Below, piece by piece: positions 17,864 to 39,128 of a stretch of 54,879 bases of DNA; the stretch's first letter is position 1; each line of letters starts with the position of its first letter. This DNA comes from Celeribacter baekdonensis (GTDB lineage: Bacteria; Pseudomonadota; Alphaproteobacteria; Rhodobacterales; Rhodobacteraceae), in NCBI RefSeq assembly GCF_900102315.1, contig NZ_FNBL01000020.1:1-54879 (forward strand), in the 5' to 3' direction. The translations under genes and the position numbers were made by a program. A model generated the notes under the pieces. That model was not told the DNA's origin. It made no database searches and saw only the letters and a program-made list of their open reading frames with translations.

Positions 17864-17880
17864 GTGCCAAAATCAGATCC

Positions 17881-18394: not shown

Positions 18395-18438
18395 CCAGAA
18401 AGGTGATAGAAGGTCATCAAGAGATAAAAGGGAAAGCC

Positions 18439-23439: not shown

Positions 23440-23708
23440 CAACAGTCTCCTAATTCTTGAGTAGTTTAGTCGGAAATTGAGTAAAGGCATGCGAAACCAA
23501 GTTCAAGAGTGTTTTTGTCAGGAATTCACTGATGGAGGTCACACCGCGTGTTTCTCCTCCCCTCAGCACCCCCGAACGCCTGATGGCCGTCCCCTTTTTC
23601 AGAAAAGAGTGCGGCCGCCAGAATCTGGAGTTGCGCAACCAGAGGGCCTGTATCCCGGAGCCAGCTTTCAATAAAAAATGGCCACTCATGGCGGGTCGCG
23701 CGTTTGAC

Positions 23709-23866
23709 TGGGGAAAGGGCTGCAAAGCGATCAGCACGGCCCAAGGGAGCGGATCACAGCATGGGATTTTCGCAGGGAAAACAGCACCCGTCTGCGCGGC
23801 AGAGGAAAAACCTCTGACGAAAAAGGCAGAAATATCTGGTGCTTTTGAAGGGATGGGAATTGTCAC
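23709..23866 (-). repeat. Right-end-like Tn7 repeat array outside the transposon (relic of another insertion)
   Basis: This 150-base stretch aligns along its length with 38459-38606, at roughly three quarters identity by eye. It shares a GGGCTGCAAAGCGATCA core, an AGCACCC block and a CAGAGG-N5-CCTCTG dyad. Read on the minus strand it holds three TGC-starting repeats beginning at 23828, 23807 and 23786, exactly 21 bp apart, as in the right end of the adjacent element. Orientation and position make it a leftover right end of an earlier element at the same site. The rest of the 23440-23708 gap shows the promoter side of the importer operon and no gene I can support. Confidence 0.6.
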
Positions 23867-23975: not shown

Positions 23976-23977
23976 AT

Positions 23978-24005: not shown

Positions 24006-24092
24006 CTCAAGGCTTTCGTGTTAGAAGGTGCCGGAGGTGAATTCACAGGCGGCCGCCCTACCAGGCAAGCGGCCCCACCCGCATTCCTGACC

Positions 24093-25904
24093 TCATCTCT
24101 CGTTCACATCACGGCGGCGAAAAATGATCCGGTTCTCGCCGTTGAAAACGAGTGGTTCGACGCCGTTTTTGTAGAGCTCGCGACAGAGATTGGCGGTATC
24201 GCGTCGCAGTTCGCGAGCAAGATCGGCAGCCGAAATATACCGTTCGCCGAAGGTTGTGACGGAGGCCTCGTCGACCACCAGCCAGCGTTCGGAGGACTTT
24301 GCGGTCTTCGGAGCAGCACTCAGATAGCCTGCGTTGACCAGGTTGCGGATTGTTGCGGTATCGACCCCGAGCTTACCGGCAGCTTCCGACATGCTGATCG
24401 CACCAACTGAGCTCTGGCCTATGGCCGTTTTCGCCCGCTCGACAGATATCAGGAAATCGTTGAACCTTGGGTCTGTGCCCGCCGCGCAGCGTAGCGGAAT
24501 GTCGTGTTCGAAAACCAGATGCAGGAGTTCGAGGGTCGAACATTGGCACGCGGGCGTGGCCGCAATGAGCGGGATCTCATCATTGGCGGGTTCCAACTTG
24601 GGGCGTGTTTGGCGGTACAAGCGACCGAGAAAGGCGTCGAGATCTTTCTTCCGAAAATACGGCGCGTTTCGGGCCATCTCTCCGGCTTTCTTAATGAGCC
24701 CTTCCACGACGAAAGTGCGCAGCAGGTGGATGTCCAGCCCGAGATAGTCTGCCGCGTCAAACCCGCGGAGTAGCCCATTCGTTTCTTCGGCGAGTTGCTG
24801 CAGCGTCTCCCGCGAGGGGTAGCGACGATAAGTGATGGCACCGGATTTGCCCGATTTCGAGATGTCGCCACGCTCTAAGAGCTTATGGCGCAGCATCCGT
24901 TCGTCGATGCCGTAGGCCTTCGCGCCTTTTCGAAGGGAATATACCTGTTGCCTGTCGCACCGTAGCCGCAGGACGGTACTACCGACGAGCACGGGATAGG
25001 TCCGCAGGATGTAGTCGAAGACAATCTGGCGGATGTCATTGAAGGCGGCATCATCCTCACGTTGGGACAGCCAGGTCAGGAATGAACCGGCAATCGCACC
25101 GTAGGTGTGACAGCCAGGGCCTGCCTTCATGCGAAGCTCTTCAAGCGTTGCGAACATGTGATCTGGCCCGTTGCGCAGAATGTCGTAGCCAGCGGCACCG
25201 GCCTCAAGCCATTGTCGTTCGGTCGTTTCCGTTCGGCTGGCTTTGGGGCCGTTGGTCAACAACAGGCCGAAGTTCTCGCAGAGCTGCGCCGCGACGTGGA
25301 AATCCAGCGTGTCCAGCCAGCAACCACTGGAGGCGCCTTCCAATCGGCCAATGAGGTAGCGCTCCAAGGATCGCGCTTCCTCTGCAACAGGCTTGACGTC
25401 ACTCAAGTTCATATTGTCGACCATCCGCGCGAAATCATAGCTGTGCTTGTGATGGGTTGGAGGCGGTACCTCGATCAGCATGCAAGAATGCTGGGCGCAG
25501 GTCCGGATTGATGTGAGTTGCCATATCCCGAGGTGAAATGGCCCATGGGCGCCATGTTTGGACCGGGATTCGGCGGCACATTTCGGGCATCCCCTGATCA
25601 AGCTTCGGCTGTAAGCCGTGAACCTCGGTGCTTCCGCTCCCAGTTGATAATTCGTCTTCGACGGGGCGTGGGGCGTCCAGTTGCGGAGTGTGGTGGGATC
25701 GCACCCGGCAAGTGCGGCAACCCGCTCGATCTCGATTGGATCACCGACCTTCAAGGCGCGATATGAAATGCTCATGTCGGCGCAGAAGGACTGAAGGCTT
25801 GCCGTCCCGTTCTTCCGAGCGATGCGGGACGCAAGCGACGTCGCGCTTTCGCCACGCACCGGGCTGACGTAGAGCGGAAGCGGCTTGAGGGGTGACAACA
25901 TCAT
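24093..25904 (-). CDS. tniQ: TniQ/TnsD-like target-selection protein of the Tn7-like element
   Basis: A 603-residue protein. The first 150 residues are a TniQ domain: PLPLYVSPVRGESATSLASR at the start, then a zinc-binding-like region with C-x2-C (RGCPKCAAESR) and a later HLGIWQLTSIRTCAQHSCML. The remaining 450 residues contain several helix-turn-helix-like segments (near 365-385, 415-440, 500-520 and 550-575), so the length is TnsD-like rather than that of the short TniQ of CRISPR-linked elements. TnsD proteins bind a fixed chromosomal site; the neighbouring tRNA-Ala is the natural candidate. ATGATG overlaps the tniB stop, with GGGAGA upstream. Confidence 0.85.
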   Translation of the reverse strand: MMLSPLKPLPLYVSPVRGESATSLASRIARKNGTASLQSFCADMSISYRALKVGDPIEIERVAALAGCDPTTLRNWTPHAPSKTNYQLGAEAPRFTAYSRSLIRGCPKCAAESRSKHGAHGPFHLGIWQLTSIRTCAQHSCMLIEVPPPTHHKHSYDFARMVDNMNLSDVKPVAEEARSLERYLIGRLEGASSGCWLDTLDFHVAAQLCENFGLLLTNGPKASRTETTERQWLEAGAAGYDILRNGPDHMFATLEELRMKAGPGCHTYGAIAGSFLTWLSQREDDAAFNDIRQIVFDYILRTYPVLVGSTVLRLRCDRQQVYSLRKGAKAYGIDERMLRHKLLERGDISKSGKSGAITYRRYPSRETLQQLAEETNGLLRGFDAADYLGLDIHLLRTFVVEGLIKKAGEMARNAPYFRKKDLDAFLGRLYRQTRPKLEPANDEIPLIAATPACQCSTLELLHLVFEHDIPLRCAAGTDPRFNDFLISVERAKTAIGQSSVGAISMSEAAGKLGVDTATIRNLVNAGYLSAAPKTAKSSERWLVVDEASVTTFGERYISAADLARELRRDTANLCRELYKNGVEPLVFNGENRIIFRRRDVNER

Positions 25905-26857
25905 GTGCGGTTCTCCCGAGAAAACACCTGACGGGCGTCGATGCGCATAAAATCCGGCACGACAAACGGATTGAACTCGGCATCGCAGGATGTCCGGCGA
26001 TGATAGGCCCGGATGAAATTGTGCCGGTTCAGTGTCTTCTGACCCTGCAGGTAGGCGTCTTCGATGGCGTCCAGGATCAGGACGATGGCGATGCCGAACT
26101 GATTGGCTGCGGCATGGACAACGCGTTCGCCGTGGGACAATTCCAGCACGTCGTCCTCTGGTTCGAGGTTTGCACGCTCACAGTAGCTGTCCAGGAGGTC
26201 GAGGATTTCATCGCCATATGCAGCGGGGGATAGGCTCTCAAACCGGACGGTCTTCATGCGGCGTGCGAGCTGGTAATCGTGGTTGAGAATGTCCTCCAGT
26301 TCGTTCGTTCCGGAAAGAATGATCCCGACGGGCCACTCCGGATCAGTCATCAGCGTCTTCAACATTGATGTCACTGAATCGAGCTCGTGCTTGGTGCCAC
26401 GCGATGCGAGGTCCTGCGCCTCGTCCAAGTGCACAAACAAGACGCGGCGCTCTCTAAGGTGGTGTTGGACCAGATCCCAAATGTACCACGCGTGACGATC
26501 GGCACCGATGGGGTAGCCGAGCGCCCGCAAGAGCATTTGTCCGACGAACTTCAGCGTTGCGGGTGACGGCACCCGCAAGCTGACGATGGTGGTGTCGCCG
26601 TGCCCATGCTCGGCCAGTCTCTGGCCTTCCATAGCGAGCAGATGGGTGACCGCGGCGCTTTTCCCGGCCCCCGAATGCCCCGACAGGGCCAGCCCTTGGG
26701 CCTCACTGGTTCGTCCGGTCTGGATGTCCACGATGCGCTTTTCGGCGAGAATGGAGAAGCCTTCTGCCAACGGTACGAAGCGTTCGTGGTGGACGAAATG
26801 CCCCTTCAGAGAAGCGATCCGTTGGGCTGCCTGAGTGACCAAATCATTTTTCATCAT
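25901..26857 (-). CDS. tniB: TniB/TnsC-like AAA+ ATPase of transposition
   Basis: About 318 residues from the ATG at 26857 (a second ATG follows at 26854), with GGAGG immediately upstream. Walker A GHSGAGKS near residue 60 and Walker B VLFVHLDEAQDLA near 140 define an AAA+ ATPase; SGTNELED is a sensor-1-like segment. TniB/TnsC polymerises on target DNA, receives the target signal from TniQ and activates the TniA/TnsA transposase. Its start overlaps the tniA stop by 14 bases, and its stop overlaps tniQ by 4 bases. Confidence 0.9.
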   Translation of the reverse strand: MMKNDLVTQAAQRIASLKGHFVHHERFVPLAEGFSILAEKRIVDIQTGRTSEAQGLALSGHSGAGKSAAVTHLLAMEGQRLAEHGHGDTTIVSLRVPSPATLKFVGQMLLRALGYPIGADRHAWYIWDLVQHHLRERRVLFVHLDEAQDLASRGTKHELDSVTSMLKTLMTDPEWPVGIILSGTNELEDILNHDYQLARRMKTVRFESLSPAAYGDEILDLLDSYCERANLEPEDDVLELSHGERVVHAAANQFGIAIVLILDAIEDAYLQGQKTLNRHNFIRAYHRRTSCDAEFNPFVVPDFMRIDARQVFSRENRT

Positions 26858-28991
26858 CAAACCTCCAATGCTTGCGGCGTTCGCGTCTTTCACGGCGTTC
26901 GGGCGGGTTGGTTGTGTCGTTGCTGGGGGCGTCTAGTTTGCCTTTGCCGATGGGCGCAGTGATGGAGATTCCGTTACTAAGTGGGTCATCGCTGGGCTTG
27001 ATGTGTCCCAATCGCATGGAATCGGAGCGGATCGGGTAATGCAGGGCAGCCTCTGAACGTGCCACATCGATATCCGTCATGTGGAATGGCGTCAGTTCGC
27101 GGAGAGCAAAGGCGCGACGGTTTATTTCGGAAATTCGCTGGATTGCTCTCTGGACCTTGGGTGCGTCCAGCAGGGCATCCCGTTTGTGCTTTTGTCGAAT
27201 GGACCGCCTACCTTCACGGAGCTGCTCGAACGTGATGCCATCGAAGCCCGGCTGGTTGGCCAAAGCGGGATACCATGTCGCGCCAACACGGACGGCAACC
27301 CACCCGATGTCGCTTAGGTCAGCCCTAATCTCGGCCTGCCGTGTCGGGGAGTGGAGATAGGCCTCACGCAGCGCCTCGCAGCTATAGCTGAGGCCTGCAA
27401 ACAAGACCCCGTCGCCGCGCAATTTGCGGACCATCGGCCGACCGAACTCCTTGCGCAATGTTAGCCCGTCAGGAACCAAGGGCGTACCATGCTCCACAAC
27501 GAGGCGCTCCCAAGCTGCATTCGGTGTTTCGCCCTTAAGCGACCCATGCGGCTGGTTGTGATAGATGTCGACGATGAAGGTCAGCAGGATCTTGATCAGA
27601 TCGTCGTCGCACAAACAGGCAAGCGTTTCCGAAGGGTAGTCGCCACGTTCCACTGTATCGAAAAACGTACGCCCCGCCAGAAGGGGCATCAATTGATGGC
27701 CGAGCGTACGGAAGAACGACTCGATATGTCCACGTAGCCAGGGCACTCCGGCACTGGGGAGATGAGCCGTCGTTCCAAGCGATGCCACCGTACCTTGAAA
27801 GGCATCCGACGTGAAAGCTGACCCCATGTCTGTGACCAGGGTTCCGATGCCGCCATGGTGATGCCAAGTGCTTTCGCATTCGGCTGCCTGCGCCAACGGC
27901 GTCTTGTCCTCAAAGATCTGACGTAGAGCCCGAATTGCATCATCGGAGTTGGGATTGTCGGCCAAACGCATCGACAGCACGCACTTCGTCGCACAATCGA
28001 TCGCGATGTAGAGCCAGCGCCTACCGGACTCGAATTTCTTCTGGCGCTCTCGTGGCAGGTGGTCCCAGATGCCCGTCAGTGTCAGTAATGAGATCACATC
28101 GAGAAGGTTTTCATCCATCTCGACTCGCTCCATTGGCCGCACGACATCAGGACCGTTGCTGAACAGTGTAAAGTGCTTGGCCGCCGCTGCCGCCCCGTAC
28201 CTTTTTGCATAAAGGTAGAATGGATCCGCCATGCTAAGGCGTCGTCGGATACTTGCCGCCGACGGCACGACAAGAGGAGGCGCCCCCCTTTCAGCACGCC
28301 GACGGTTCTCTTCGTCGAAACGTGCCTGTGTCTCCTTGATCGCCTGAACCTTGGTCGGGCGCTGCGTGTCAGCGTAGATCTCGACAACCTGATTCATCAG
28401 GGCTTCAGAGCGTGGGCACCAAAACCGTTCCCTATTTCCAGAGCGGTAGGTTTCCGGGATGAGTGCAAGCGGTGAACAACTTGCAGACTGATAGGAGCGA
28501 ACCCACTGAAACGCCGTTCGACTTCCAGGGAGATTTCGAACTATGACGTCTTTACCTGGTCGTACCTTCTTGGGAGCCGCGGCACCTTCGCCGACGCGCC
28601 GCTGCGTTTCCGCGGCCAGTCTGGGGCGAGCATGATCATAGCCCTCCTGCGTGCGTCTGATGTCACCAGTTGCCTCCAAGGCAAGGAAAGCGTCGCAGAC
28701 CGCCTTTCGCCAAATGACGAGCCGCCTGATCTGCTCCGGCAACTCGCTGATGAGGTCGACCGGCTTTTTCAGCCGCATCTCTTGGGCGGCGCGGTCGAAA
28801 TACCCGGCAAAGTAGGTTGTGTCCGGCCGGCGCATCATCTCAGCCAGTTCCTGATGGGAGAAAGCTTCCGTGATCCCCGGCTGGCCGACGCGCTCAAAAG
28901 TGCCACCCGCATCGGTGATCTCAATCGGGCGCATGGCGACGCCCGCCGTGGTGATCATGTCAGATTTCGAAAAGCGAAAACGCAGGGTCAT
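26844..28991 (-). CDS. tniA: TniA/TnsB-like DDE transposase
   Basis: A 715-residue DDE recombinase that cuts and joins the 3-prime ends of the element. The retroviral-integrase core lies at about residues 285-490: first aspartate in LYIAIDCATKCVLSM, second in TLVTDMGSAFTSD, glutamate in LRGHIESFFRTLG. The N-terminal 250 residues contain helix-turn-helix regions for end binding, and a mu-transposase-like C-terminal barrel precedes a basic tail (PPERRERRERRKHW) that may contact TniB. The start has GGAGGTG upstream and overlaps the tnsA stop (ATGA). Confidence 0.92.
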   Translation of the reverse strand: MTLRFRFSKSDMITTAGVAMRPIEITDAGGTFERVGQPGITEAFSHQELAEMMRRPDTTYFAGYFDRAAQEMRLKKPVDLISELPEQIRRLVIWRKAVCDAFLALEATGDIRRTQEGYDHARPRLAAETQRRVGEGAAAPKKVRPGKDVIVRNLPGSRTAFQWVRSYQSASCSPLALIPETYRSGNRERFWCPRSEALMNQVVEIYADTQRPTKVQAIKETQARFDEENRRRAERGAPPLVVPSAASIRRRLSMADPFYLYAKRYGAAAAAKHFTLFSNGPDVVRPMERVEMDENLLDVISLLTLTGIWDHLPRERQKKFESGRRWLYIAIDCATKCVLSMRLADNPNSDDAIRALRQIFEDKTPLAQAAECESTWHHHGGIGTLVTDMGSAFTSDAFQGTVASLGTTAHLPSAGVPWLRGHIESFFRTLGHQLMPLLAGRTFFDTVERGDYPSETLACLCDDDLIKILLTFIVDIYHNQPHGSLKGETPNAAWERLVVEHGTPLVPDGLTLRKEFGRPMVRKLRGDGVLFAGLSYSCEALREAYLHSPTRQAEIRADLSDIGWVAVRVGATWYPALANQPGFDGITFEQLREGRRSIRQKHKRDALLDAPKVQRAIQRISEINRRAFALRELTPFHMTDIDVARSEAALHYPIRSDSMRLGHIKPSDDPLSNGISITAPIGKGKLDAPSNDTTNPPERRERRERRKHWRFDDEK

Positions 28992-29488
28992 GCTGCCACC
29001 TCCGTAAGAGAGGGGCGTGACCAGGCCAGCGTCCTCGCCGCTTCGGCGGCTGCTTGCCGATCAATGTGCTGATCAGTGACGAGCAGCACACGGTCCGCAA
29101 AGGACTTGGAGACTGCGACCGACACAGATTCGAGCTCCGAGGCGAAGTTCAGCTTCAGAACACGCTGCATAGGTTTGATGGCCACCGCGATGCGCTCGCC
29201 ATCCTTCTTGGTGACTAGGAAGTCGAAGATATGCCGCGCGGGACGGCCATCGGTACCGACATAAGAGATCGCCGGAGGCTGTTCGCGGATGTGGTGCACG
29301 TCGTCTCGCACCAGCATCAGGCAGAGGAAGGCATATTCGAGCGCACTCTCGAAGTGGATAAGGCGCGGACGCTGGAAACCAGGTAGCATGGCAACCATTG
29401 AGCCGCGCAAACTGCCCTTGGAGCGGCGTGCAGGAATTCGGGTCGCGTGGCTCGGTTCCGGCCCGCGGTAGATCAGATTGTTCTTCAT
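28988..29488 (-). CDS. tnsA: TnsA-like endonuclease of the Tn7-like element
   Basis: About 166 residues from the ATG at 29488; an upstream GTG at 29509 is possible. The core reads FESALEYAFLCLMLVRDDVH, then PARHIFDFLVTKKDGERIAVAIKP, the spaced E...D...xxK pattern of the TnsA PD-(D/E)XK nuclease, which cleaves the 5-prime strands so that transposition is cut-and-paste. It is shorter than E. coli TnsA (273 aa) and seems to lack most of the C-terminal TnsC-contact domain. As first gene of the operon it is coupled to tniA by ATGA. Confidence 0.8.
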   Translation of the reverse strand: MKNNLIYRGPEPSHATRIPARRSKGSLRGSMVAMLPGFQRPRLIHFESALEYAFLCLMLVRDDVHHIREQPPAISYVGTDGRPARHIFDFLVTKKDGERIAVAIKPMQRVLKLNFASELESVSVAVSKSFADRVLLVTDQHIDRQAAAEAARTLAWSRPSLTEVAA

Positions 29489-29582
29489 GTTAATTGGAGC
29501 GCACCTCACCAGCGCACCGAACCAGACGGCTCGGAGCTGGAGAGGGGCGGCATCCCCCTATGTTTGGAATGAGTTGAGCAGC

Positions 29583-29693
29583 CCTGCCGAGAGATGTCTC
29601 GGCAGGTTGACTTTTCTTGAGACTCAGGGGATGAATAAGAAGTCGAGTCGAAACGACACTTATTCAAAAGGCCTTCCTGTTGACGCAGGAGGG
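29583..29693. promoter_or_regulatory. Leader region of tnsA with three dyads, including the regulator terminator
   Basis: Three inverted repeats fill the gap between tnsA and the Ner-like gene. CCTGCCGAGA/TCTCGGCAGG (29583-29606, 10-bp perfect stem) lies in the tnsA leader. GAATAAG/CTTATTC (29633-29665) has an inner GTCG/CGAC. CCTTCCTG/CAGGAGGG (29672-29693) is flanked by T-rich sequence and is a likely terminator of the regulator gene ending at 29712. The first two are candidate operators or attenuators for transposition genes. Confidence 0.45.
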
Positions 29694-29711
29694 TCTTTTC
29701 TTTTCCCGATG

Positions 29712-29972
29712 TCAGGTTTTACTTGCCGCGCTGTCCTCCTCTGCTGAGTATCGGTCAGGGAAAAGCTCTGCCGGTGTCGTTCCGACTGCATTGGCGAGGG
29801 CTTTCTCGATTTTCGAAGACCTGCGCAGGCCTTGGCTGACAAGCGTTACTGTCGAACGCAGCACATCAAGCTCTCGTGCGACTGAAGCAATGGATTTACC
29901 ACGCAACCGTAGTTCCATCTTCAGGCGTTCATGAGCAGGTTTCACTTTGTGGGACATTGACGCTGTAACCAT
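29712..29972 (-). CDS. Small Ner/Nlp-type helix-turn-helix regulator
   Basis: An 86-residue protein; an alternative ATG lies at 29957 and neither start has a strong ribosome site. KPAHERLKMELRLRGKSIAS, then VARELDVLRSTVTLVSQG, then KIEKALANAVGTTPAELFPD follow the pattern of phage Mu Ner and Nlp proteins, lambda-repressor-like DNA-binding domains with the typical PAELFPDRY end. It stands between tnsA and the oppositely oriented cargo, so it could repress transposition, cargo or both. The divergent gap to 30125 holds three AATCAG copies. Confidence 0.8.
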   Translation of the reverse strand: MVTASMSHKVKPAHERLKMELRLRGKSIASVARELDVLRSTVTLVSQGLRRSSKIEKALANAVGTTPAELFPDRYSAEEDSAASKT

Positions 29973-30000
29973 GATTGCTGGGACTTCGTGATCTGGAGAG

Positions 30001-30045
30001 AATCAGCTATGAACGAATCAGTCAAGGATAACTGTTTGAAATCAG
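30001..30045. promoter_or_regulatory. Three AATCAG repeats in the divergent promoter gap
   Basis: AATCAG occurs at 30001, 30016 and 30040 between the Ner-like gene (minus) and the first cargo gene (plus). This may be a repressor site set, but the motif is short and spacings are uneven (15 and 24). Confidence 0.25.
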
Positions 30046-30124
30046 ATGGTTAAAAAATTCGGCGAAATTCTTGGGATATATGTCTGTGGAATTTTGCCGA
30101 AGTTTTTGGCCAGAGGGAGAGCGT

Positions 30125-30730
30125 ATGGGAGCTGCCAGAAATTATCTGGATATCGCGGGCGATACCGTTTTTGTCTTCGCCGACGGAGAGGCAAAAGGCG
30201 TCCATCATTCTGAACTCCTTGATTTAATGAGGCGCAGCCGCTCGTTAGCAGAGGTTCGGAAGCGCTTTATGGCCAGCCGGTCCAATCTAATCGAGACGTT
30301 GGATCACTTCGGATACGACTTCGACACGCTGCTCGAAGAGCAGTTTCGGGAGGGGTATCGCGATGCTGCCTTGGCAAAACTTCATCGCGTTGATCCCAAA
30401 TGGATTGCGGACAAGCGGCAAGCATTGGGCTTCCCGAATGCGCCAGGACGGACGCGTGTCGAGTTTTCAGTGGATGAAATCATGCGCGCTTACGATGCAG
30501 CCGGAAGTTTTGTTGGAGCGGCGGCGCTGCTTGGCATCAACCGGAAGACCTTCAAGAAGTTGTACTTATGGGCCCTTGAAAATGGCCTTCAGATCGAGCA
30601 CCGATCTAGCGCATCGGCCGAACGCCTAGCAGCACTACAAGAGAAGGCAAGGGCACTCGGTATCACTACGACATTGACTGAAGCGGAGCTGAAGGCCTTT
30701 ATGGACGACCAATGGGGCGAGGGCGACTAG
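30125..30730 (+). CDS. Unrecognised cargo protein with a Fis-like helix-turn-helix
   Basis: About 201 residues from the ATG at 30125, which has AGGGAG six bases upstream; a TTG at 30071 and an ATG at 30080 are earlier options. I do not recognise a named family. The protein is soluble and mostly helical. VDEIMRAYDAAGSFVGAAAL followed by LGINRKTFKKLYLW (about residues 118-153) resembles the Fis-type helix-turn-helix, so DNA binding is plausible. It opens the plus-strand cargo and is followed after 55 bases by the first HNH-type gene. Confidence 0.6.
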   Translation: MGAARNYLDIAGDTVFVFADGEAKGVHHSELLDLMRRSRSLAEVRKRFMASRSNLIETLDHFGYDFDTLLEEQFREGYRDAALAKLHRVDPKWIADKRQALGFPNAPGRTRVEFSVDEIMRAYDAAGSFVGAAALLGINRKTFKKLYLWALENGLQIEHRSSASAERLAALQEKARALGITTTLTEAELKAFMDDQWGEGD

Positions 30731-30785
30731 CGCGATCATCGCTACAAGATGCCTCCCGAGAGCGAAGGTAAGAGGGCGACAAATT

Positions 30786-31502
30786 TTGGACCGCATAGAA
30801 GAATTTGTCGACGAGCGACAGCAAGCTTGGTGTATCCATTGCAGCCGTTGGCTAGCGGGTCTTGAGACAAATGAAGATCATGTGCCTACGAAGAGTTTCC
30901 TTTCAAAACCGCGCCCTCACAATCTGCCGAGCGTGACCATTTGCCGTGAGTGCAATAATGGCTTCTCGCGGGACGAGCAGTATGCTGTGATCTTTCTGAG
31001 TTGCGTGCTATCGGGCACTACTGAGCCAGACCGACAACAAAACGCCAGTGCTGCCCGGGCACTGGCAAAAAGTGCTCGGTTTCGGGCCATGATTGACCGG
31101 GCGAAAACAGAGTACCAAACACTGGGTGGAGAAACGAGGGTCGTTTGGCAGCCCGATGTTGAGCGGATCAACCGCGTAATTATCAAGAACGCCCGAGGGC
31201 ATGCGTACTTTGAATATGGGGAACCTTTGATGGAGACGCCTTCCCATGTATGGGCCGCGCCGTTGGGAACGATGTCGGCGAGCGATCACGCTGACTTCGA
31301 AAGTGTCAACAATTGTCAAGAACTTGCCGCTTTGCCCGAGGTCGGAAGTCGGATGATGACGAGGGTCTTTACTGGCCAAGATCTGGACGATGGTTGGGTT
31401 GTCGTGCAAGATGGTGCCTACCGATATGCAGTTCATCAGACTGGCGTGCTTCGCGTGAGGTCGGTCTGGTGGGAGTATCTCGCGACGGAGGTGAAGTGGT
31501 GA
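30786..31502 (+). CDS. HNH-like zinc-finger protein of the cargo
   Basis: A 238-residue protein using a TTG start with GAGGG upstream. The N-terminal 60 residues hold WCIHCSRWL, then NEDHVPTKSFL, then VTICRECNNGFSRDE: two CxxC knuckles around a D-H pair, the arrangement of HNH nucleases that bind zinc. The remaining 170 residues have no motif I recognise. The final histidine-asparagine of a canonical active site is replaced by the CNNGFSRDE stretch, which many HNH_5-like proteins also show. The stop overlaps the next HNH gene start by 4 bases (GTGA), so the two are probably co-produced. Confidence 0.65.
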   Translation: MDRIEEFVDERQQAWCIHCSRWLAGLETNEDHVPTKSFLSKPRPHNLPSVTICRECNNGFSRDEQYAVIFLSCVLSGTTEPDRQQNASAARALAKSARFRAMIDRAKTEYQTLGGETRVVWQPDVERINRVIIKNARGHAYFEYGEPLMETPSHVWAAPLGTMSASDHADFESVNNCQELAALPEVGSRMMTRVFTGQDLDDGWVVVQDGAYRYAVHQTGVLRVRSVWWEYLATEVKW

Positions 31503-32185
31503 CGACAAAATCACCCAGTTCGGTATTGTCCGACGCGAAACGAAGCTCGCTCAATGCGCGGCTCGCTATGCTGCGCAATGCGGTGTCCGCCGAACGATCT
31601 CGTGCAAGTTGTCTTCGACGGTGGAGCGAATTTGTCCGCGAGCGTGACGGATTTCGCTGCGTGGACTGTCACTCGCAAGAGCGGCTATCTGCCCATCATA
31701 TTTGTCGAAAAACGTTCCTCGGTGCTGCGCAATTCGACACGGGGAACGGGATTACACTTTGCCGTACATGCCATCGCGAGGCTCATGCAGGCTTCAATGG
31801 GCGTCCCGACATGTCACTGCCAGTTGACGCTCAGGGGGGCGAGAAGCTCGCCTCGATGGAACGACTATACAGCATACTTTTGGATGACGCGATCGAGCGC
31901 GGAAGAATGTGTGAGGAATACTATTTTCTCAGTGACGAAGTGCTTGGCTTTCTCAAAGTGTTGCAAGGCTTTGATCCGAAAACTTATTTTCCAGGTTCGC
32001 GTCTCGAACGAGCATACCTCATCTTGGCGGAACCTGAACTGCAAATGCGTCAGGCTATTGCTGGGGCGAATGGTTTCAGTTTTGGAGACCAACCTCTTTT
32101 GCCTGGTGGAGTGATGATCGTGTTCGATGACGAGAAAGATCGGTCGCAGAGTTCAATCCTGCAAGCACGCTGGGGCAGATTGTAG
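31499..32185 (+). CDS. HNH endonuclease of the cargo
   Basis: About 228 residues from a GTG at 31499 preceded by GGAGGTGAA; the longer frame starting at 31313 runs inside the previous gene and is rejected. The HNH core reads FVRERDGFRCVDCHSQERLS, then AHHICRKTFL, then GNGITLCRTCHREAH (about residues 46-99), with two CxxC zinc knuckles, the catalytic His of AHH and the second-shell N and H. Such domains nick or cut double-stranded DNA. The C-terminal 130 residues are unrecognised. It lies upstream of the GHKL ATPase and may be the nuclease effector of the system. Confidence 0.75.
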   Translation: MTTKSPSSVLSDAKRSSLNARLAMLRNAVSAERSRASCLRRWSEFVRERDGFRCVDCHSQERLSAHHICRKTFLGAAQFDTGNGITLCRTCHREAHAGFNGRPDMSLPVDAQGGEKLASMERLYSILLDDAIERGRMCEEYYFLSDEVLGFLKVLQGFDPKTYFPGSRLERAYLILAEPELQMRQAIAGANGFSFGDQPLLPGGVMIVFDDEKDRSQSSILQARWGRL

Positions 32186-32390
32186 AAAATTGCGCACAGA
32201 ACAACTCTGAAAGCATTTTCTGCGTCACTGAGTAAGCTGTTATCTGGCCACAAATAGTGATGGTATCGAAGCAACATAATAGATGATGGCATTGGCACAG
32301 GCATAATTCAAAGATAGCCTACCGCATGAAAAAATGCGGATCGAGTTATGCGCGAGTGCCTCGTGTGCACAAAAAAAGGCGGCAACAATA

Positions 32391-35369
32391 GTGGCAAAGT
32401 TTCACATCAGAGCGCGAACCATAGATCTTCTTGGTCGACAGCAAATCGCCAACATATCTACGGCAATAAGTGAGCTTTTCAAGAACGCGCATGACGCTTA
32501 TGCCACTACAGCGGAAGTCGACTACTTTCGGGATGATGGCATGTTTGTCTTGAGAGATGACGGCCTCGGGATGACCAAACAAGATTTCGAAGACCGCTGG
32601 CTCACACTTGGAACTGACAGCAAGGTAGGATCGTTTTCAGGCCTGAAACGCCCCCCAGTGGATAGTGCACAAGACGTCCGTCCCCTTCTTGGGGAAAAGG
32701 GCATAGGGCGGCTAGCAATCGCTGTCATCGGCCGACAAGTACTTGTACTAACCCGCGCAAAAGTCGATGGGCAAACTGAGGATACCATTACGGCCGCTTA
32801 CATCCATTGGGGGTTGTTTGAACTACCTGGGATAGATCTCGACGAAATCGTTATCCCACTTGAAACTTTCAGAGCTGACACCCTGCCGAACCTTGAAGAC
32901 GTGCAAAAGATGGTAGCAAAAGCCCGGGACAGCCTCGAAACCCTATCAAGCCGGATAGACGATAAAACTGCTAAGACTATCCGCGAAGACATGGACGCCT
33001 TTAAAGTCGACCCTCGAGATGCATCAACCTACCTTGGCCAGCCTTCTTTTGATTTGAACGGTTCGGGCACTCATTTCTATATACTGCCTGCCGATGAAAT
33101 CATCCAAGATGATATTGACGATCGGGATGAATCAACCAAGGCGACAAGGTTCGAAAAAAACCTCATTGGCTTCACAAACACTATGACGCCGGATTTCCGG
33201 AAGCCGAAGATCATAACCCGATTTAGAGATCACGTTGATGAAGGGGCGCCGTTGGAGCGAGTTGGGGAGAAAGCTTTCTTTAGCCCTGAAGAGTTCAAGC
33301 AAGTAGATCATCATATACGAGGACGCTTCGATGAATATGGCCAATTCCGAGGCAAGGTCGGTGTGTATCAGACATTGCCTTCGGAGTATGTACTCAATTG
33401 GTCAAACGCAGACAGCAGGCCGACTAGCTGCGGCCCATTTGACTTTTCAATAGCGGTGATTCAACCAACTCCAATGGACTCGTTGGTGGACCCTACAGAG
33501 CACGCCAAAATTCGGCGCAAGCTTGAACGCCATGGTGGTATTTACATCTACAAAGACGGTGTCCGAGTTCAGCCATACGGTGGTCCTGACTTCGATTTCC
33601 TCGATGTTGAACGCAGGCGGAACTTGAGAGCAGCAACGGCCTACTATTCCTTCAGAAACATTATGGGGGCAGTCGAACTGACATCTAGAGATAACCCCAA
33701 CTTGGTCGAAAAAGCAGGGAGGGAAGGTTTCCGTGAGGATAAGGCTTATCGACAGTTTCGAAGTATACTGATCAATTTCTTCATACAATCGGCGGCGGAC
33801 TTCTTTAGGGAAAATGGCGGCAAGTATTCAGAAGAATGGGTTGAAAAGCGTCAAGAACTTCAACACCTTGATAAGGTCCGAAAGACTCGAGAAAAACAGT
33901 CAAGGGGTAAGAAGAACAAGTTCGGTGAGCAGCTAGAGAAATTCTTCAAGGTAATAGACTCAGGACAGCTGCCCGAAACTATATCTGGTACTGTTTCTGA
34001 TTTTGAAGCGAACGTGCTTTCTGAACTCAATAGCACGAAGACTCCACAATCAAAGGCGCTTGCAATTGGTCGTCTGGAGGCTGAAGCAAAGTTGCAATTG
34101 GACCAACTTCGCAAGGAGCATGCTATCTCAAAACCTCGAGGTGTAGGTCTTAACACTGAACTACGAAACAACTGGGAGGCCTACCAAACAGCAATGGGCC
34201 GGATAACGAGCGATCTTGTGTTGCCTGCCGAGAAGACGATCGAGAACATCGTTACAACAACCGTAAAGAACAACAAGCTGAACCTTGAGCCGGGGCTGCG
34301 ACTGAATGCTGCTGTCCAAAAACACACAAAAGAGACCCTTTCATCTATGAAGTCTTTGCGGACGCAGACAGAAGAGACCCTCACCGACCTGACACGAATA
34401 GTAAGGGATACAACAAAAAACAGCTTTCGAAACGTATCGAAAGTCGTCGATGAAGTCCTTGCCGAACTAGAGGCCGTCAAAGGTATGAAGCAGGCAGAGT
34501 TCGATTTCTCAAAACAGCGTGAGGCTTTCGAAACCTTGGTGGCCGACGCCTTCGAAGAAGAGAGTGAAAAACTGCGGAGAATCTACAGTCAGCTCGAAGC
34601 TGTTCTCTCATCAACCCAAAACAGCGGTTCAGATATGGTCGAAGTCACTGAGGCGCTGGAAGAGGAAGTCGTCGCGCTTCGCGAGCGACAGGAGGCCGAT
34701 TTCGAGCTTGCCCAGATTGGGATGGCACTTAACACGATCAATCATGAATTTGGTAAGACTGCTGGCAGCCTGCGAGATGGCCTCAGACGAATGAAGTCCT
34801 GGGCGCATGCCAATCCTGATATGAAGCGCCTCTACGATGACATGCGCGTCAATTTTGATCATCTGGACAGCTACTTGGCCCTATTCAACCCGCTCGACCG
34901 AAAGCTGCAGTCGACTGCTGTCGACATTAGAGGCAGTGACATATTTCGATTTGTGTCTGACTTGTTTGAGAAGCGCCTCAAACGTCACAACGTTCGGCTG
35001 GTCGCCGATGAGGGTTTTAAGGCCCATACTCTTCATGGGTTTCACGCAGACTTCTATCCTGTCTTCGTCAACTTGATTGATAACGCGATCTATTGGGCGT
35101 CTAGCGCTAGAAAAGACGCGGGCATTATTGAACTAATTGAAGACAATGGCGACCTTTGTGTCAGAGACAACGGTCGTGGGGTGAGTAGCATTGACGTCAG
35201 GAACATTTTTGAGCTCAACTTTACCCGCAAGCCGGGTGGTAGAGGTATGGGACTGCATATTTCAAGGCAGGCGCTTGGCCGCCTTGGTTATGAACTGAAC
35301 ATCGATCCACCAACGCCCAATTCTGGTGCCTGTTTCCGTATTTCAAAGATGTCCCAAGAGAAGATTTGA
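32391..35369 (+). CDS. Large ATPase with N-terminal MORC/Hsp90-like and C-terminal histidine-kinase-like GHKL domains
   Basis: About 992 residues from a GTG at 32391 (RARTIDLLGRQQIAN follows); an ATG at 32334 gives an N-terminal extension not expected of the family. The N-terminal GHKL domain shows the N box ISELFKNAHDAYA (about 26-38), DDGLGM (56-61) and GEKGIGRLA (about 98-106). A middle region with long helices and coiled coils follows. Near 785 there is an NTINHEFGKTAG H-box-like motif; near 890-975 a second GHKL domain follows with NLIDNAIYWAS, RDNGRGVSS and GGRGMGLHISRQAL. ATPases of this type occur in restriction-linked loci. It is followed after 4 bases by a receiver-like gene, suggesting phosphotransfer. 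Confidence 0.8.
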   Translation: MAKFHIRARTIDLLGRQQIANISTAISELFKNAHDAYATTAEVDYFRDDGMFVLRDDGLGMTKQDFEDRWLTLGTDSKVGSFSGLKRPPVDSAQDVRPLLGEKGIGRLAIAVIGRQVLVLTRAKVDGQTEDTITAAYIHWGLFELPGIDLDEIVIPLETFRADTLPNLEDVQKMVAKARDSLETLSSRIDDKTAKTIREDMDAFKVDPRDASTYLGQPSFDLNGSGTHFYILPADEIIQDDIDDRDESTKATRFEKNLIGFTNTMTPDFRKPKIITRFRDHVDEGAPLERVGEKAFFSPEEFKQVDHHIRGRFDEYGQFRGKVGVYQTLPSEYVLNWSNADSRPTSCGPFDFSIAVIQPTPMDSLVDPTEHAKIRRKLERHGGIYIYKDGVRVQPYGGPDFDFLDVERRRNLRAATAYYSFRNIMGAVELTSRDNPNLVEKAGREGFREDKAYRQFRSILINFFIQSAADFFRENGGKYSEEWVEKRQELQHLDKVRKTREKQSRGKKNKFGEQLEKFFKVIDSGQLPETISGTVSDFEANVLSELNSTKTPQSKALAIGRLEAEAKLQLDQLRKEHAISKPRGVGLNTELRNNWEAYQTAMGRITSDLVLPAEKTIENIVTTTVKNNKLNLEPGLRLNAAVQKHTKETLSSMKSLRTQTEETLTDLTRIVRDTTKNSFRNVSKVVDEVLAELEAVKGMKQAEFDFSKQREAFETLVADAFEEESEKLRRIYSQLEAVLSSTQNSGSDMVEVTEALEEEVVALRERQEADFELAQIGMALNTINHEFGKTAGSLRDGLRRMKSWAHANPDMKRLYDDMRVNFDHLDSYLALFNPLDRKLQSTAVDIRGSDIFRFVSDLFEKRLKRHNVRLVADEGFKAHTLHGFHADFYPVFVNLIDNAIYWASSARKDAGIIELIEDNGDLCVRDNGRGVSSIDVRNIFELNFTRKPGGRGMGLHISRQALGRLGYELNIDPPTPNSGACFRISKMSQEKI

Positions 35370-35373
35370 TCAG

Positions 35374-37044
35374 ATGAATTTTGCAGATGACCAATACAAC
35401 GCTGCCAGCTCTTTCGCCTATACAATGATCGTAGTTGATGACGAACCTGTAGCTGACCCCATCGAAGCGGCGCCGACCGTTGATGTTAAAACACCCAGTA
35501 GGCGCGATGTTGTAGCCGCTAAAAAGGTTGACGAGAAACCTGAGGCACAACGTTCACATCCGCTAGACGCAAAAGGATTGATAAAAAGTGCCCTAGACTT
35601 GGGGCTTATCTGCTCGGTTGTTAATCCGAGTGGTGATGAAGGTAGTGTAGCAAAAAGTGTCGCTAAAGCCTCCTTGAGAGCTGATATCGTATCCTTAGAC
35701 TGGCACATGGATCACGGTGATGATGGAGAGCTCGCATCCGAGATTATTCAGGAAATTCTTCGTGGAGATGAGGCCATTGGAGGACGCCTGAGATTGATTG
35801 CGATTTACACCGGCAACAAGGATCACGGAGCCATCCTTGAAAAAATCGCTGAAAGGCTCAACGCAGCTGAGGAAATCACTGGCAATGTTACTAAGACAGG
35901 TGATGTGCTTACCAACTCTTCAGGTCTACGTCTAATTTGGCGCGAAAAATCGATGGGCAATGAGAAATTAACTGGTGCCGTTTCCGAGACGCAACTTCCA
36001 AAAGAATTGTTGAAGGCATTCTCGGAGTTATCAAATGGTCTACTTTCGAACGTCGCGCTCGCAACGATTTCCTCGATGAGAGACACGACGCATCATGTTT
36101 TGAGCAAATTTTCATCAGAGCTCGATGGCCCATTCTTTCACCACCGAGCGCTTCTAAAAAATTCATCAGATTCGATGGATTATGCAGTTTCTGTTGTGAT
36201 GAGTGCGTTGAAATCGGAGGTGGACAAGTCAAAAGTCACGTCGAAATATACAACGGTGGACGCAATAAAGCGTCGCTTAAGTCAGATGCCTCAGTGCCCT
36301 GAGAATTTCACACTCCGCTACTCGAAGAAAGATCAAGAAAAAGAGTTTAAGCTGCATGTTGATGATGTCATTTCAATTATGGAGCGTGGGTTCTCCGCTT
36401 GGCCAGAACCAGACAAGAAAGCAGCTCTTGGGAGGCAACAAGACCCGCAAGCCAGCCCAATGCCGTCAAAAGCTGAATTTTCCAAGAATTTTTCTACGCT
36501 GTTCTGCGATACCATTGAGACAGCAAGTTTCTCCATGCGGCAGTTCTCGTTCCTGACTAACTCTCAGTCAAGTGAGCTCAGTATGGTACACCGAAAAGCA
36601 CCACCAAAATTAGGGCTAGGATCAGTCATTTTCTCGGATGCTGGCGGCTACTTTTTGTGCTTACAAGCGACCTGCGATACTGTCCGTGGGGCTGGATTGT
36701 TTTTCTTTGTTCCGCTCGAAATCGTTGATAGTGATACCCCTGATATCGTCGTGCCTCATGGAAAAAATGGGACGCTTATCAACTACGTGGGCCTTTCGGT
36801 TCCGCCAAAGTGTTACACCAAATCCCAGTCTCTTGATTTTGGTGTGATAAACGATGCCATAGGGCATATCCCAATATGCTACGATGAGCAGCGAGAGATT
36901 TACCATGTCCCGGATGCCAACAATACGGACTACCGCTGGCTCGCAAATCTAAAGTACAAGCGGGCACTTAGAATTGCGCAGAATATGAGCCAGGAAATCT
37001 CTAGGATTGGCTTCGATGAATTCGAGCCATTTCGCAAAGGTTAG
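35374..37044 (+). CDS. Response-receiver-like protein partnered with the GHKL ATPase
   Basis: About 556 residues from the ATG at 35374, 4 bases after the ATPase stop. The N-terminal 200 residues look like an atypical receiver domain: MIVVDDEP (18-25) has the acidic pair, IVSLDWHMDHG has a candidate phospho-acceptor aspartate at about 109, and LRLIAIYTGNK has the conserved Thr position. An insertion of about 45 residues with many charged residues follows the first strand, unlike ordinary response regulators. Residues 200-556 match no family I know and contain no helix-turn-helix that I see. The stop overlaps the convergent methyltransferase stop. Confidence 0.65.
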   Translation: MNFADDQYNAASSFAYTMIVVDDEPVADPIEAAPTVDVKTPSRRDVVAAKKVDEKPEAQRSHPLDAKGLIKSALDLGLICSVVNPSGDEGSVAKSVAKASLRADIVSLDWHMDHGDDGELASEIIQEILRGDEAIGGRLRLIAIYTGNKDHGAILEKIAERLNAAEEITGNVTKTGDVLTNSSGLRLIWREKSMGNEKLTGAVSETQLPKELLKAFSELSNGLLSNVALATISSMRDTTHHVLSKFSSELDGPFFHHRALLKNSSDSMDYAVSVVMSALKSEVDKSKVTSKYTTVDAIKRRLSQMPQCPENFTLRYSKKDQEKEFKLHVDDVISIMERGFSAWPEPDKKAALGRQQDPQASPMPSKAEFSKNFSTLFCDTIETASFSMRQFSFLTNSQSSELSMVHRKAPPKLGLGSVIFSDAGGYFLCLQATCDTVRGAGLFFFVPLEIVDSDTPDIVVPHGKNGTLINYVGLSVPPKCYTKSQSLDFGVINDAIGHIPICYDEQREIYHVPDANNTDYRWLANLKYKRALRIAQNMSQEISRIGFDEFEPFRKG

Positions 37045-38150
37045 CACCCCCTGATCTGGGGGCAGCCGTAAGACAACGATTTTGAAATCTGTACCGCGTG
37101 CCGCCTAATAAACTCTGGGGGTAACGCATTACCGATCATTAGAGCGACCTTGCCGCGACCTTCCGTGAGGTCAAACTGATAATCAGCAGGAAACGTTTGA
37201 AACAACGCGGCTTCACGTAGACTTATTGCACGGTCCTCTTCGGGGTGAAGATATCGCCCCTTTGAGGGATTTCCGCAGCCACCAGTCATCGTTGGTGAAA
37301 CCTTGTCCCACGACATTCGTCCATAAACATCTCGAAAACCAGTGTTCTTCTTATGGCATTCCAATACCAAATGGTCGGGCAAGGATGTTCTTGAGCCCCC
37401 GTCCTTTGGTATATTTCGGATGATCTCTGCAACATGAGCTGCCCTGTTAGGAACATGATCATGCAATGGATCCCCTGCTTCACCAACTGGCGCCAGACGA
37501 ACAGCTTCGAGGCATTTGCGGACAGTAATAGCTTCTGATTTTTCAGCTTGCTTGACTTGGCCAGTCTTGGACGCGAGCAAGATCATCCTGTAGCGGCGCT
37601 GAGGTACACCGTATTCCGCAGCGTCCTCCACCCTTACGTTCTTCCGCCCAACCTTGTAGCCAAGAACAGAGATACGCTTCAAGAACGTCTTCATCCGGAT
37701 ATCGTGTGCTAATGCAGGCACATTCTCCATCATGATTGATCGAGGAGAAAGAGCCTCAACTATGCGAAGAAACTCGAACAGAAGATCGTTCCGATCATCT
37801 GCAACCGCATTGGATTTTTTTCTGGTTCGGAGCGTGGAGAAGCCCTGGCAAGGTGGACAACCTGCTAATAAGTCGAGTTCGCCACGTTTTAAGCCAGTTG
37901 CTTTCAAGATCTCAACAGCACCAATTTTGCGTATGTCCTTGTCAAAGCAATGAACATCTGGGTGGTTGAGCTTATAAGTCGCTGCAGGTATTTTTTCAAT
38001 TTCTATGCCAGCCAGCACGCGAAACCCGGCCTGCTTCAAGCCCAGCGTCAGGCCACCTGCGCCGCTAAACAGGTCGATAGCCGTCAGTGTCTTGCACATG
38101 CACGGTTGTGGCTGACTATGCTGATTTGCTTCTGTACTTTCCTCGCTCAA
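37041..38150 (-). CDS. DNA (cytosine-5) methyltransferase, Dcm family
   Basis: About 369 residues from a TTG at 38150 that has AGGTGG seven bases upstream; another TTG at 38198 and an ATG at 38099 are alternatives. Conserved motifs in order: I, AIDLFSGAGGLTLGLKQAGF; IV, GCPPCQGFSTLR with the catalytic cysteine; VI, MMENVPAL; VIII, YGVPQRRYRMIL; X, GNALPPEF. The target-recognition region (about 225-300) is short. It would methylate a fixed sequence and probably protects the host from the HNH nuclease. It is convergent with the receiver-like gene with overlapping stops, so it has its own promoter near the transposon right end. Confidence 0.9.
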   Translation of the reverse strand: MSEESTEANQHSQPQPCMCKTLTAIDLFSGAGGLTLGLKQAGFRVLAGIEIEKIPAATYKLNHPDVHCFDKDIRKIGAVEILKATGLKRGELDLLAGCPPCQGFSTLRTRKKSNAVADDRNDLLFEFLRIVEALSPRSIMMENVPALAHDIRMKTFLKRISVLGYKVGRKNVRVEDAAEYGVPQRRYRMILLASKTGQVKQAEKSEAITVRKCLEAVRLAPVGEAGDPLHDHVPNRAAHVAEIIRNIPKDGGSRTSLPDHLVLECHKKNTGFRDVYGRMSWDKVSPTMTGGCGNPSKGRYLHPEEDRAISLREAALFQTFPADYQFDLTEGRGKVALMIGNALPPEFIRRHAVQISKSLSYGCPQIRGC

Positions 38151-38458
38151 AGTAATGCCACCTAACGTGCTGATAGAAATGCGCAATTTTTGGGGCAATG
38201 ATAGCCTTTTCTAACGCCCTTCTCAAGGCGCTATCTTCGCAATTTGGTGGCGTCGAGAGAACCGGAAAGCACAGTATCCAAGAACTGTTTTTCTGCTCCA
38301 TCTATGGAATGCTTGCGGTATGTACTAAAAAGACCGTTTCTCAGTACGGGTTTGGATTGCGAGTCAATCGCAACGGAGGACTTTGTGCCGCCGTTTGTGA
38401 CCCTCTTCTGGAGGTGTATGGTCTGTTAAATTCGAAGTATCCTCGGCGAAAGGTTCCA

Positions 38459-38606
38459 TGGGGAAGGGCTGCAAAGCGATCAACACGCCAAAAGGCGCGG
38501 ACCGAAGTAGCTTAGATTTCCGTAGGAAAATAAGCACCCATCTTCGCGACAGAGGCAAATCCTCTGGCAAGAAAGGCAGAACTATCTGCCCCTTTTCAAG
38601 GGAATA
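38459..38606 (-). repeat. Right-end transposase-binding repeat array next to tRNA-Ala
   Basis: Read on the minus strand, repeats start at 38578 (TGCCTTTCTTGCCAGA), 38557 (TGCCTCTGTCGCGAAGA) and 38536 (TGCTTATTTTCCTACGGA), 21 bp apart, with a weaker fourth near 38514. The GGCAGA/TCTGCC and CAGAGG/CCTCTG dyads arise from these repeats. The block 38199-38458 between it and the methyltransferase shows only the methyltransferase promoter side and no gene I can support. Confidence 0.65.
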
Positions 38607-38682
38607 TGGTGGAGCCTAGCGGGATCGAACCGCTGACCTCCTGCATGCCATGCAGGCGCTCTCCCAGCTGAGCTAAGGCCCC
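38607..38682 (-). tRNA. tRNA-Ala (anticodon GGC)
   Basis: The 76-base gene folds into a full cloverleaf. The acceptor stem GGGGCCT/AGGCTCC has the G3-U70 wobble pair that specifies alanine. The D-loop region is TAGCTCAGCTGGGAGAGC. The anticodon stem CCTGC/GCAGG holds the loop ATGGCAT with anticodon GGC. The T-arm has GGTTCGATCC, and CCA is encoded. The Tn7-like element ends about 10 bp beyond the 3-prime end, making this gene its probable attachment site. Confidence 0.97.
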
Positions 38683-38774
38683 ATTTGACCGATTTTACCG
38701 CTGTGTCTGGCGGGGTGCGAGGGGCGATTTCCGCCCGCTCGCGCTTCCTAGGGTGTCTCGCTTGGGGTTGCAAG

Positions 38775-38811
38775 CGAAAAAATCCGGCCCCGTGAACTTT
38801 TTTACGAGGCC
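38775..38811 (-). terminator. Rho-independent terminator of the TIGR02300-type gene
   Basis: On the minus strand GGCCTCGT and ACGGGGCC pair (one G-U) around a 10-base loop, followed by GGATTTTTTCG. It begins 12 bases after the gene stop. Confidence 0.75.
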
Positions 38812-38822
38812 ACTTTCAACCC

Positions 38823-39128
38823 TCAATCGTCGTCGTCTGCGGCCACGTCAGCGATGTCGTCGAGCGAGACATTGTCGTCATCGTCATCCACGAGCAGATC
38901 GTCTTCGATATCGACATCTGCATCATCATCAATCAACAGATCTTCATCATCGGCATCGTCGTCAATCGGGGCGGTTTTTTCGGCAATGGCCACGCGCGAC
39001 TTGTTGTTCATGTCAAACGTGACGGTTTCGCCGGTGTAGGGCGACACAATCGGAGTTTTGTTCAGGTCGTAGAACCGTTTGCCGGTGGTTGGGCATACGC
39101 GCTTTACGCCCCATTCCTCATTGGGCAT
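38823..39128 (-). CDS. TIGR02300 family acidic protein
   Basis: About 101 residues from the ATG at 39128, with AAGGGA upstream; the longer frame to 39188 is rejected because family members begin MPNEEWG. The N-terminal half, EEWGVKRVCPTTGKRFYDLN then KTPIVSPYTGE, is the conserved alphaproteobacterial motif with a single cysteine. The C-terminal half is almost all aspartate, with DDD runs broken by I, V and L. The function of the family is unknown; the low-complexity tail is normal for it. It is next to tRNA-Ala, as a host flank rather than transposon cargo. Confidence 0.85.
   Translation of the reverse strand: MPNEEWGVKRVCPTTGKRFYDLNKTPIVSPYTGETVTFDMNNKSRVAIAEKTAPIDDDADDEDLLIDDDADVDIEDDLLVDDDDDNVSLDDIADVAADDDD

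Follow-up and report, generated by a model that had tools for sequence, protein, structure and literature searches.

A Tn7-like element beside a tRNA-Ala gene of Celeribacter baekdonensis, at about 23.85–38.46 kb of contig NZ_FNBL01000020.1 (the whole 54,879-nucleotide stretch, hereafter the window, whose coordinates we use throughout), carries three modules: (i) TnsA, TnsB, TniB/TnsC and TniQ with two small open reading frames (ORFs), (ii) a pair of HNH genes, HNH1–HNH2, and (iii) a core formed by a dual-GHKL kinase, a Response_reg_2 receiver protein and a convergent C5 cytosine DNA methyltransferase. Our favoured reading, to which we give a probability of roughly 45%, is that this core is a mobile, methylation-guarded and phosphorelay-gated defence module of three genes. 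Its basis is gene content, linkage, conserved catalytic residues, predicted folds and mobility; from these we infer DNA sensing by the MORC-type half of the kinase, phosphotransfer, an effector activity of the receiver output and an anti-phage purpose. The question is narrowed to three genes, with the HNH pair set aside, and within the receiver one particular output domain and one fast-evolving stretch are singled out.

Linkage of kinase, receiver and methyltransferase

A genome collection was searched with an alignment of four kinases, which gave at least 591 pattern matches and at least 289 relatives, from which the best 80 loci were taken; the window proteins, together with Vsr from locus L018, were compared with the ORFs of these loci using phmmer, a single-sequence search that may miss remote relatives. 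The receiver accompanies 78 of the 80 kinase relatives, both misses lying at a contig end. A C5 methyltransferase stands within 600 bp of the core in 75 loci (67 upstream on the same strand, 8 convergent downstream) and about 1.5 kb away in L098, and in the four loci with no methyltransferase match (L023, L043, L072 and L093) the contigs run on downstream of the core for only 77, 257, 2 and 35 bases. By record titles, relatives of the core are spread across many bacterial phyla and archaea. A partial DNA match to a Pantoea kinase gene is found in 212 of 5426 complete E. coli genomes (7–13% of the query, among the 15 matches listed), and both of the 2 regions examined among these 212 hold the core, in the order methyltransferase–kinase–receiver. 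In one of the E. coli loci (L143, 13681–20873), an HNH_2 protein comes after the core and is annotated as a phosphorothioated-DNA-binding endonuclease; the region has a MobH relaxase and an integrase and lies beside a tRNA-Leu gene. Elsewhere, an ORF for an AAA-type ATPase follows or faces the receiver no more than about 25 bases from its end (L056, L071, L076 and L092) and is a possible accessory; it encodes 596–603 amino acids in the first three and is short in L092, with AAA_15/AAA_21 confirmed in L076 only.

The HNH genes do not share this linkage. HNH1 was found in 2 of the 80 loci (L023 and L097), and HNH2, the 219-amino-acid ORF and each transposon gene in one (L023). At least 3 kb of sequence is available upstream of the core in 60 loci, downstream in 54 and on both sides in 41; among these 41, HNH1 occurs in 1 and HNH2 in 0. 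In the closest relatives other than L023, namely L026, L025 and L024, whose kinases are 93, 91 and 87% identical to that of the window, blastn matches to the window are confined to 32389–38088, i.e. to kinase, receiver and methyltransferase, and the cores of L024 and L025 lie amid phage portal, terminase, protease, tail or integrase genes. The pair also occurs by itself: in L139 (genome G334), adjacent homologues of HNH1 and HNH2 have a Vsr, a C5 methyltransferase and a single-GHKL protein 2.6–6 kb away, and the 17-kb stretch around them contains no kinase or receiver match. Across 385 genomes of the class, HNH2 is present in three (the window's own, G135 and G334) and PF19192 in five (the window's own, G083, G116, G160 and G348), and the two meet only in the window's own genome. 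HNH1 homologues were seen in 9 plasmid records; in the 5 regions examined, a DNA cytosine methyltransferase is near HNH1 in L106, L107 and L108, with none in the features shown for L109 and L110.

From these distributions the HNH genes look like a passenger of their own, with both the pair and the transposon genes travelling alongside the core but outside its mechanism, and on the counts above, from single-sequence searches, we rejected a five-gene system with HNH effectors as the conserved unit. The view that HNH1 and HNH2 serve as nucleases of a single system run by kinase, receiver and methyltransferase could draw on their position, in the window and L023, immediately upstream of the kinase and in the same orientation, on the HNH1 homologue that follows the receiver in L097, and on the HNH_2 protein that does so in E. 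coli L143. We nevertheless consider it quite improbable, given the scarcity of both genes, the absence of the pair from L024, L025 and L026, and its occurrence in L139 near another Vsr/methyltransferase/GHKL cluster in a genome without a PF19192 match.

The original prediction, made from the letters of the window, had placed two HNH proteins, a dual-GHKL ATPase, a receiver-like protein and a C5 methyltransferase here, and all five genes exist at about those places, the HNH matches falling under Pfam cut-offs. It had also treated restriction and signalling parts as a unit, which holds for the kinase, receiver and cytosine methyltransferase, conserved together, but not for the rare HNH proteins; the neighbourhood comparison it proposed, carried out over the 80 loci, upheld the linkage of the core, and L139 has the HNH pair with neither a kinase nor a receiver match. 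The idea of one compact system was not borne out: the methyltransferase is on the opposite strand, a gap of about 205 bases separates HNH2 from the kinase, and the comparative data divide the set into three modules.

Could the core simply serve the elements that carry it? A selfish or epigenetic module would stabilise mobile elements by post-segregational killing, or exclude rival elements rather than phages, and indeed the settings of the core include a Tn7-like transposon, prophage regions, plasmids and the E. coli element beside tRNA-Leu, with near-total linkage of the methyltransferase. On the other hand, it also sits in an ordinary-looking chromosome stretch (L031), and such a role is compatible with defence rather than exclusive of it; we rate this explanation as having a low probability, much like that of HNH nucleases under kinase control.

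The predicted relay and its output

The kinase (residues numbered from 32334) consists of a MORC-type GHKL domain with S5, a coiled coil, a HEF_HK domain bearing His804 and a HATPase_c domain. Its N-terminal half matches SMCHD1, MORC3 and MutL, with a predicted GHKL-S5 fold, and the GHKL residues E47, N51, D75, G120 and G125 are kept in 64 of 64 kinases. The receiver protein has a receiver domain with the predicted phospho-acceptor Asp109, a helical linker, a fast-evolving segment (residues ~300–400) and a predicted C-terminal MazF/PemK-like barrel; D22, D23, D109, T146 and K192 are conserved, and C429 and C434 are invariant, within the motif C-x4-C-D-x2-R. In the methyltransferase, the motifs FSGAGG, PCQ, ENV, QRRYR and GNA are all present.

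We therefore picture the N-terminal MORC/MutL-like half of the kinase as an ATP-driven dimeric clamp that would sample DNA and engage DNA without the C5 methyltransferase mark, e.g. incoming phage DNA, whilst the methyltransferase would protect the host. The signal would run through the long coiled coil to the HEF_HK/HATPase_c half, where His804 would be autophosphorylated and the phosphate then passed to Asp109 of the receiver. Phosphorylation could free the receiver output, i.e. the helical linker, the fast-evolving domain and the MazF/PemK-like barrel, which might harm phage or cell as an RNase-like or novel nucleolytic effector; alternatively, the output could recruit Vsr or HNH as an accessory nuclease in loci that have one. 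If the phosphorelay does gate an effector, two-component signalling would be joined to methylation-based discrimination of self from non-self.

What the output might be is suggested, weakly, by its predicted fold. MazF/PemK toxins have catalytic Arg and Thr residues and RNase activity. A Foldseek search with the receiver model placed MazF, and with it an SH3-like barrel, at rank 1 (E 9.5e-3, template modelling score for the target 0.56), a weak match reported with no aligned residue range and with nothing below 0.001; of the top 50 matches, 13 carry MazF in their title, and toxin or toxin-antitoxin structures account for another 7. In a viral structure library, PemK-like structures came up at ranks 4 and 12. 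The likeness would be one of fold without sequence relationship, and the invariant motif is a different one. PemK_toxin is absent among the 25 listed of 34 Pfam families matched by 74 receivers at E<=1, where only Response_reg_2 recurs, and a PDB sequence search gave 2 weak unrelated matches. Membership of the MazF/PemK family itself was considered and rejected, leaving a hint of fold only. A comparison by hhalign against 26 PemK-family sequences gave 0.3%, and two control parts of the protein, the receiver domain and the middle, gave 0.3% and 0.1%, so this comparison does not discriminate.

The segment preceding this barrel evolves fast. In 134 pairs drawn from 60 sequences with kinase identity of 55–95% (pairs that share sequences and are not independent), mean receiver identity is 0.29–0.31 at residues 301–375 against 0.59–0.64 at 201–275, with kinase bins at 0.46–0.84. 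Further low receiver bins are 151–175 (0.30), 26–50 (0.28), 51–75 (0.36) and 451–475 (0.35); with the first 75 residues excluded, the lowest bin falls in 301–375 in 74 of the 134 pairs and in 151–175 in 33. Between the window and L024, nonsynonymous difference reaches 0.50 at residues 301–350 and 0.38 at 351–400, compared with 0.02–0.10 in the kinase. Between the window and L025, synonymous difference is 0.18–0.38 over receiver residues 1–150 and 0.65 and above afterwards, near saturation; such an abrupt rise at about residue 150, while kinase and methyltransferase stay close, points to allele replacement, and suggests that the whole output region differs between the two receivers by exchange. 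Identities of the window proteins to those of L025 and L024 are 91 and 87% for the kinase, 89 and 87% for the methyltransferase, and 67 and 61% for the receiver; since the receivers have diverged while the methyltransferases have not kept pace, the output does not simply track the methylated site.

These observations bear on the reading offered in PMC8011034, namely a regulatory two-component system in which kinase and receiver only control the expression or activity of the linked methyltransferase or of a nearby restriction system, with no effector of their own. The receiver-domain fold is ordinary, which agrees with it: VIA-align gave receiver-domain matches in its top 50. We think it unlikely, however, as no known DNA-binding output family was seen in the receivers among the 25 listed Pfam families or in the PDB sequence search, residues 300–400 evolve far faster than kinase and methyltransferase, and, among the 80 relatives, no nuclease family constantly accompanies the core as something to regulate. 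Of the two parts of a type II restriction–modification system, a methyltransferase and an endonuclease with a common site, the core shows the first, and the second has no constant candidate family beside it. A bolder form of our own reading would make the core a new class of immunity, in which a MORC-type clamp fused to a histidine kinase detects unmethylated or otherwise foreign DNA and arms, through a true His-to-Asp relay, a receiver bearing a MazF-like, fast-evolving effector. We regard this as possible, if doubtful; if true, it would amount to restriction–modification with a signalling relay and a toxin-like output standing in for the "endonuclease".

Several points weigh against our favoured reading. 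In 27 of 64 kinases, the C-terminal G1 box has Asn at the position of Asp945. The MazF-like match is weak, with an hhalign probability no better than that of two control parts of the receiver. A Vsr homologue is present in 46 of the 80 loci, so the core may not suffice alone in all of them, and a phage collection contained no receiver homologue at 1e-5. Sensing of absent methylation by the clamp is a guess. To look for enrichment in defence islands, we sampled neighbours from 28 of the 80 loci, with an unsplit kinase and flanks of at least 6.5 kb each (L023, L045 and L101 were skipped): at 1e-10, genes near the core (n=112) matched 267 PADLOC families and far genes (n=87) 63, figures on which we place no weight because they count families and not genes and both sets contain generic ATPases and defence matches.

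A Pseudomonas syringae plasmid (L016, 4924–8729) carries a decayed copy, its kinase in pieces with an IS5 transposase and its receiver short, and no methyltransferase match in the 16.7-kb stretch. A broken kinase and a short receiver with no methyltransferase match nearby lend anecdotal support to an output that is harmful and needs guarding.

Relation to described systems

The window core is a further member of an already described, uncharacterised kind, known since 2021: HEF_HK/Response_reg_2 two-component-like elements linked to restriction–modification were put forward as a putative system by Bellieny-Rabelo et al. (PMC8011034). With these elements, as that paper's main sections present them, it shares the Pfam domains, the group 1 kinase architecture (HATPase_c_3+HEF_HK+HATPase_c), an adjacent receiver, conserved His and Asp, and a linked C5 methyltransferase, sometimes with HNH or Vsr; the three-domain kinase, the adjacent receiver with its acidic pair, Asp, Thr and Lys, and the linked methyltransferase are all found in the window. 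It differs in its Tn7-like setting, its convergent methyltransferase and the HNH pair that accompanies it. The output fold and the fast-evolving segment do not appear in the introduction, results, discussion and most of the methods of PMC8011034; new here are the dissection into modules, the hint of a receiver-output fold and the fast-evolving segment at residues ~300–400. In the literature, judged mostly by title and with most subscription papers outside our reach, we found no functional study of the kinase–receiver–methyltransferase module.

MORC/paraMORC ATPases in restriction–modification loci were described by Iyer et al. in 2008 (PMC2292703), with the same N-terminal GHKL and S5 half and with C5 methyltransferases, Vsr and HNH nearby; the window kinase adds a histidine-kinase half and a receiver partner, and the word "receiver" has 0 occurrences in the main text of that paper. 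The model NF050001 of HgiDII/BbrUII-type restriction enzymes matches kinase residues 23–148 (E 1.9e-16), but it scores 59.7 bits where the curated cut-off is 550, and the match is limited to the N-terminal ATPase domain. VcSduA, a Shedu protein with a GHKL ATPase domain, protects against phages, its GHKL domain being thought to control the nuclease (PMC12137116); as described in the accessible part of that source, it is a single protein with a C-terminal PD-(D/E)xK nuclease, with no kinase half, receiver or methyltransferase. Restriction–modification modules are the commonest defence cargo of Tn7-like elements according to the main text of PMC8649781, and the window element resembles those in its TnsA, TnsB, TniB/TnsC, TniQ, tRNA-side insertion and restriction-type cargo; that main text nowhere mentions GHKL, HATPase or response regulator.

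The set with a receiver partner had been thought unnamed, and the full set indeed matches no single catalogued PADLOC system, although the core itself was already in print (PMC8011034). In our copy of PADLOC-DB, the kinase has 5 weak matches (best: a type II restriction enzyme, 2.3e-09), and the receiver, HNH1 and the 219-amino-acid ORF match 0 families at E<=1; as to Detocs, an analogue with the components DtcABC, no match named Dtc is among the 5 for the kinase and none was found for the receiver, the Dtc content of the library being unchecked. The methyltransferase has 64 matches, of which the 25 listed are to MTase_II, DruM, DrmMII or orphan MTase models.

Shorter dual-GHKL kinases, of 731 and 756 amino acids, were seen on a Campylobacter plasmid (L020, 5992–10442) and an Allorhizobium plasmid (L022, 6793–11479), and the kinase query matches 43 Campylobacter plasmid records. 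Both kinases, on conjugative plasmids, lack a HEF_HK match at 0.001 and adjoin a partner and a methyltransferase, convergent in L020. The receiver match of the L020 partner is under the cut-off and the L022 partner has no Pfam match; a six-sequence alignment places a kept CD motif in the C-terminal part of both.

The Tn7-like element and its insertion site

The TnsA/TnsB/TnsC-TniB/TniQ set is complete in the window (Table 1) and recurs in L023 and genome G405, where a TnsB homologue, 80% identical, sits between TnsA and TnsC homologues; the window TnsB has five matches in its own genome, counting itself. The small helix-turn-helix (HTH)-like ORF and the 219-amino-acid ORF accompany the transposon genes, with homologues in L023 and beside TnsABC-TniQ in G405.

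An empty site is seen in a genome of the same genus (G396), in which window positions 23108–23849 and 38459–38855 match one 1-kb stretch (L158) with a single copy of the ~150-bp repeat instead of two. L023, from Pseudosulfitobacter pseudonitzschiae, holds a near-copy of the element that matches 24106–36881 at 92%, up to the end of its contig, and 23854–24006 at 80%. Together, the empty site and the near-copy place the kinase, HNH and methyltransferase set within an insertion of ~14.6 kb beside tRNA-Ala. The repeat copies are 80–86% identical across two aligned blocks, and their imperfection blurs the element ends and the target-site duplication.

Table 1. Features of the insertion and its borders, in window coordinates
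Feature	Position	Strand	Evidence
Left copy, ~150-bp imperfect direct repeat bracketing the insertion	23702..23853
TniQ-family target selector	24093..25904	-	Pfam TniQ E 3.3e-17
TniB/TnsC-type AAA ATPase	25901..26893	-	Pfam TniB E 4.1e-17, AAA_22 6.3e-14
TnsB-type transposase, rve core	26844..28991	-	rve E 2e-06, just under Pfam cut-off
TnsA-like endonuclease	28988..29509	-	Tn7_TnsA-like_N E 1.4e-06
Small ORF, HTH-like by eye	29712..29972	-	no PADLOC family
ORF, ATG at 30125; 219 amino acids from TTG 30071	30125..30730	+	no family above cut-off
HNH1, HNH_5-like	30786..31502	+	HNH_5 E 8.1e-05, under Pfam cut-off
HNH2, HNH protein	31499..32185	+	HNH E 0.0023, under Pfam cut-off
Core 1: dual-GHKL kinase, probable GTG start	32391..35369	+	HATPase_c_3 1.6e-17, HEF_HK 2.9e-26, HATPase_c 2.3e-16
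Core 2: Response_reg_2 receiver protein	35374..37044	+	Pfam Response_reg_2 E 6.6e-39
Core 3: C5 cytosine DNA methyltransferase, start about 38102	37041..38102	-	DNA_methylase E 1.7e-53
Right copy of the ~150-bp repeat, contiguous with tRNA-Ala	38459..38603
tRNA-Ala (GGC) at the insertion site	38607..38682	-	ARAGORN

Within the cargo, a probable GTG start of HNH2 at 31499 overlaps the stop of HNH1, and HNH-type CxxC...H...CxxC motifs are visible by eye in both proteins. The receiver gene begins 4 bases past the kinase end, and its own end overlaps that of the convergent methyltransferase gene. An ORF of 105 amino acids that separates the methyltransferase start from the repeat (38198–38515, +) has no Pfam family and may be spurious. 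In the left repeat copy, a 17-bp stretch has an exact inverted copy at 23938–23954, in the left end of the element. The left flank (11750–23490) holds iron/haem-uptake-like genes (periplasmic binding protein, FecCD, ABC ATPase), ApbE, PepSY and an E1-E2 ATPase, and is chromosomal, because the binding-protein gene sits at the same site in G396.

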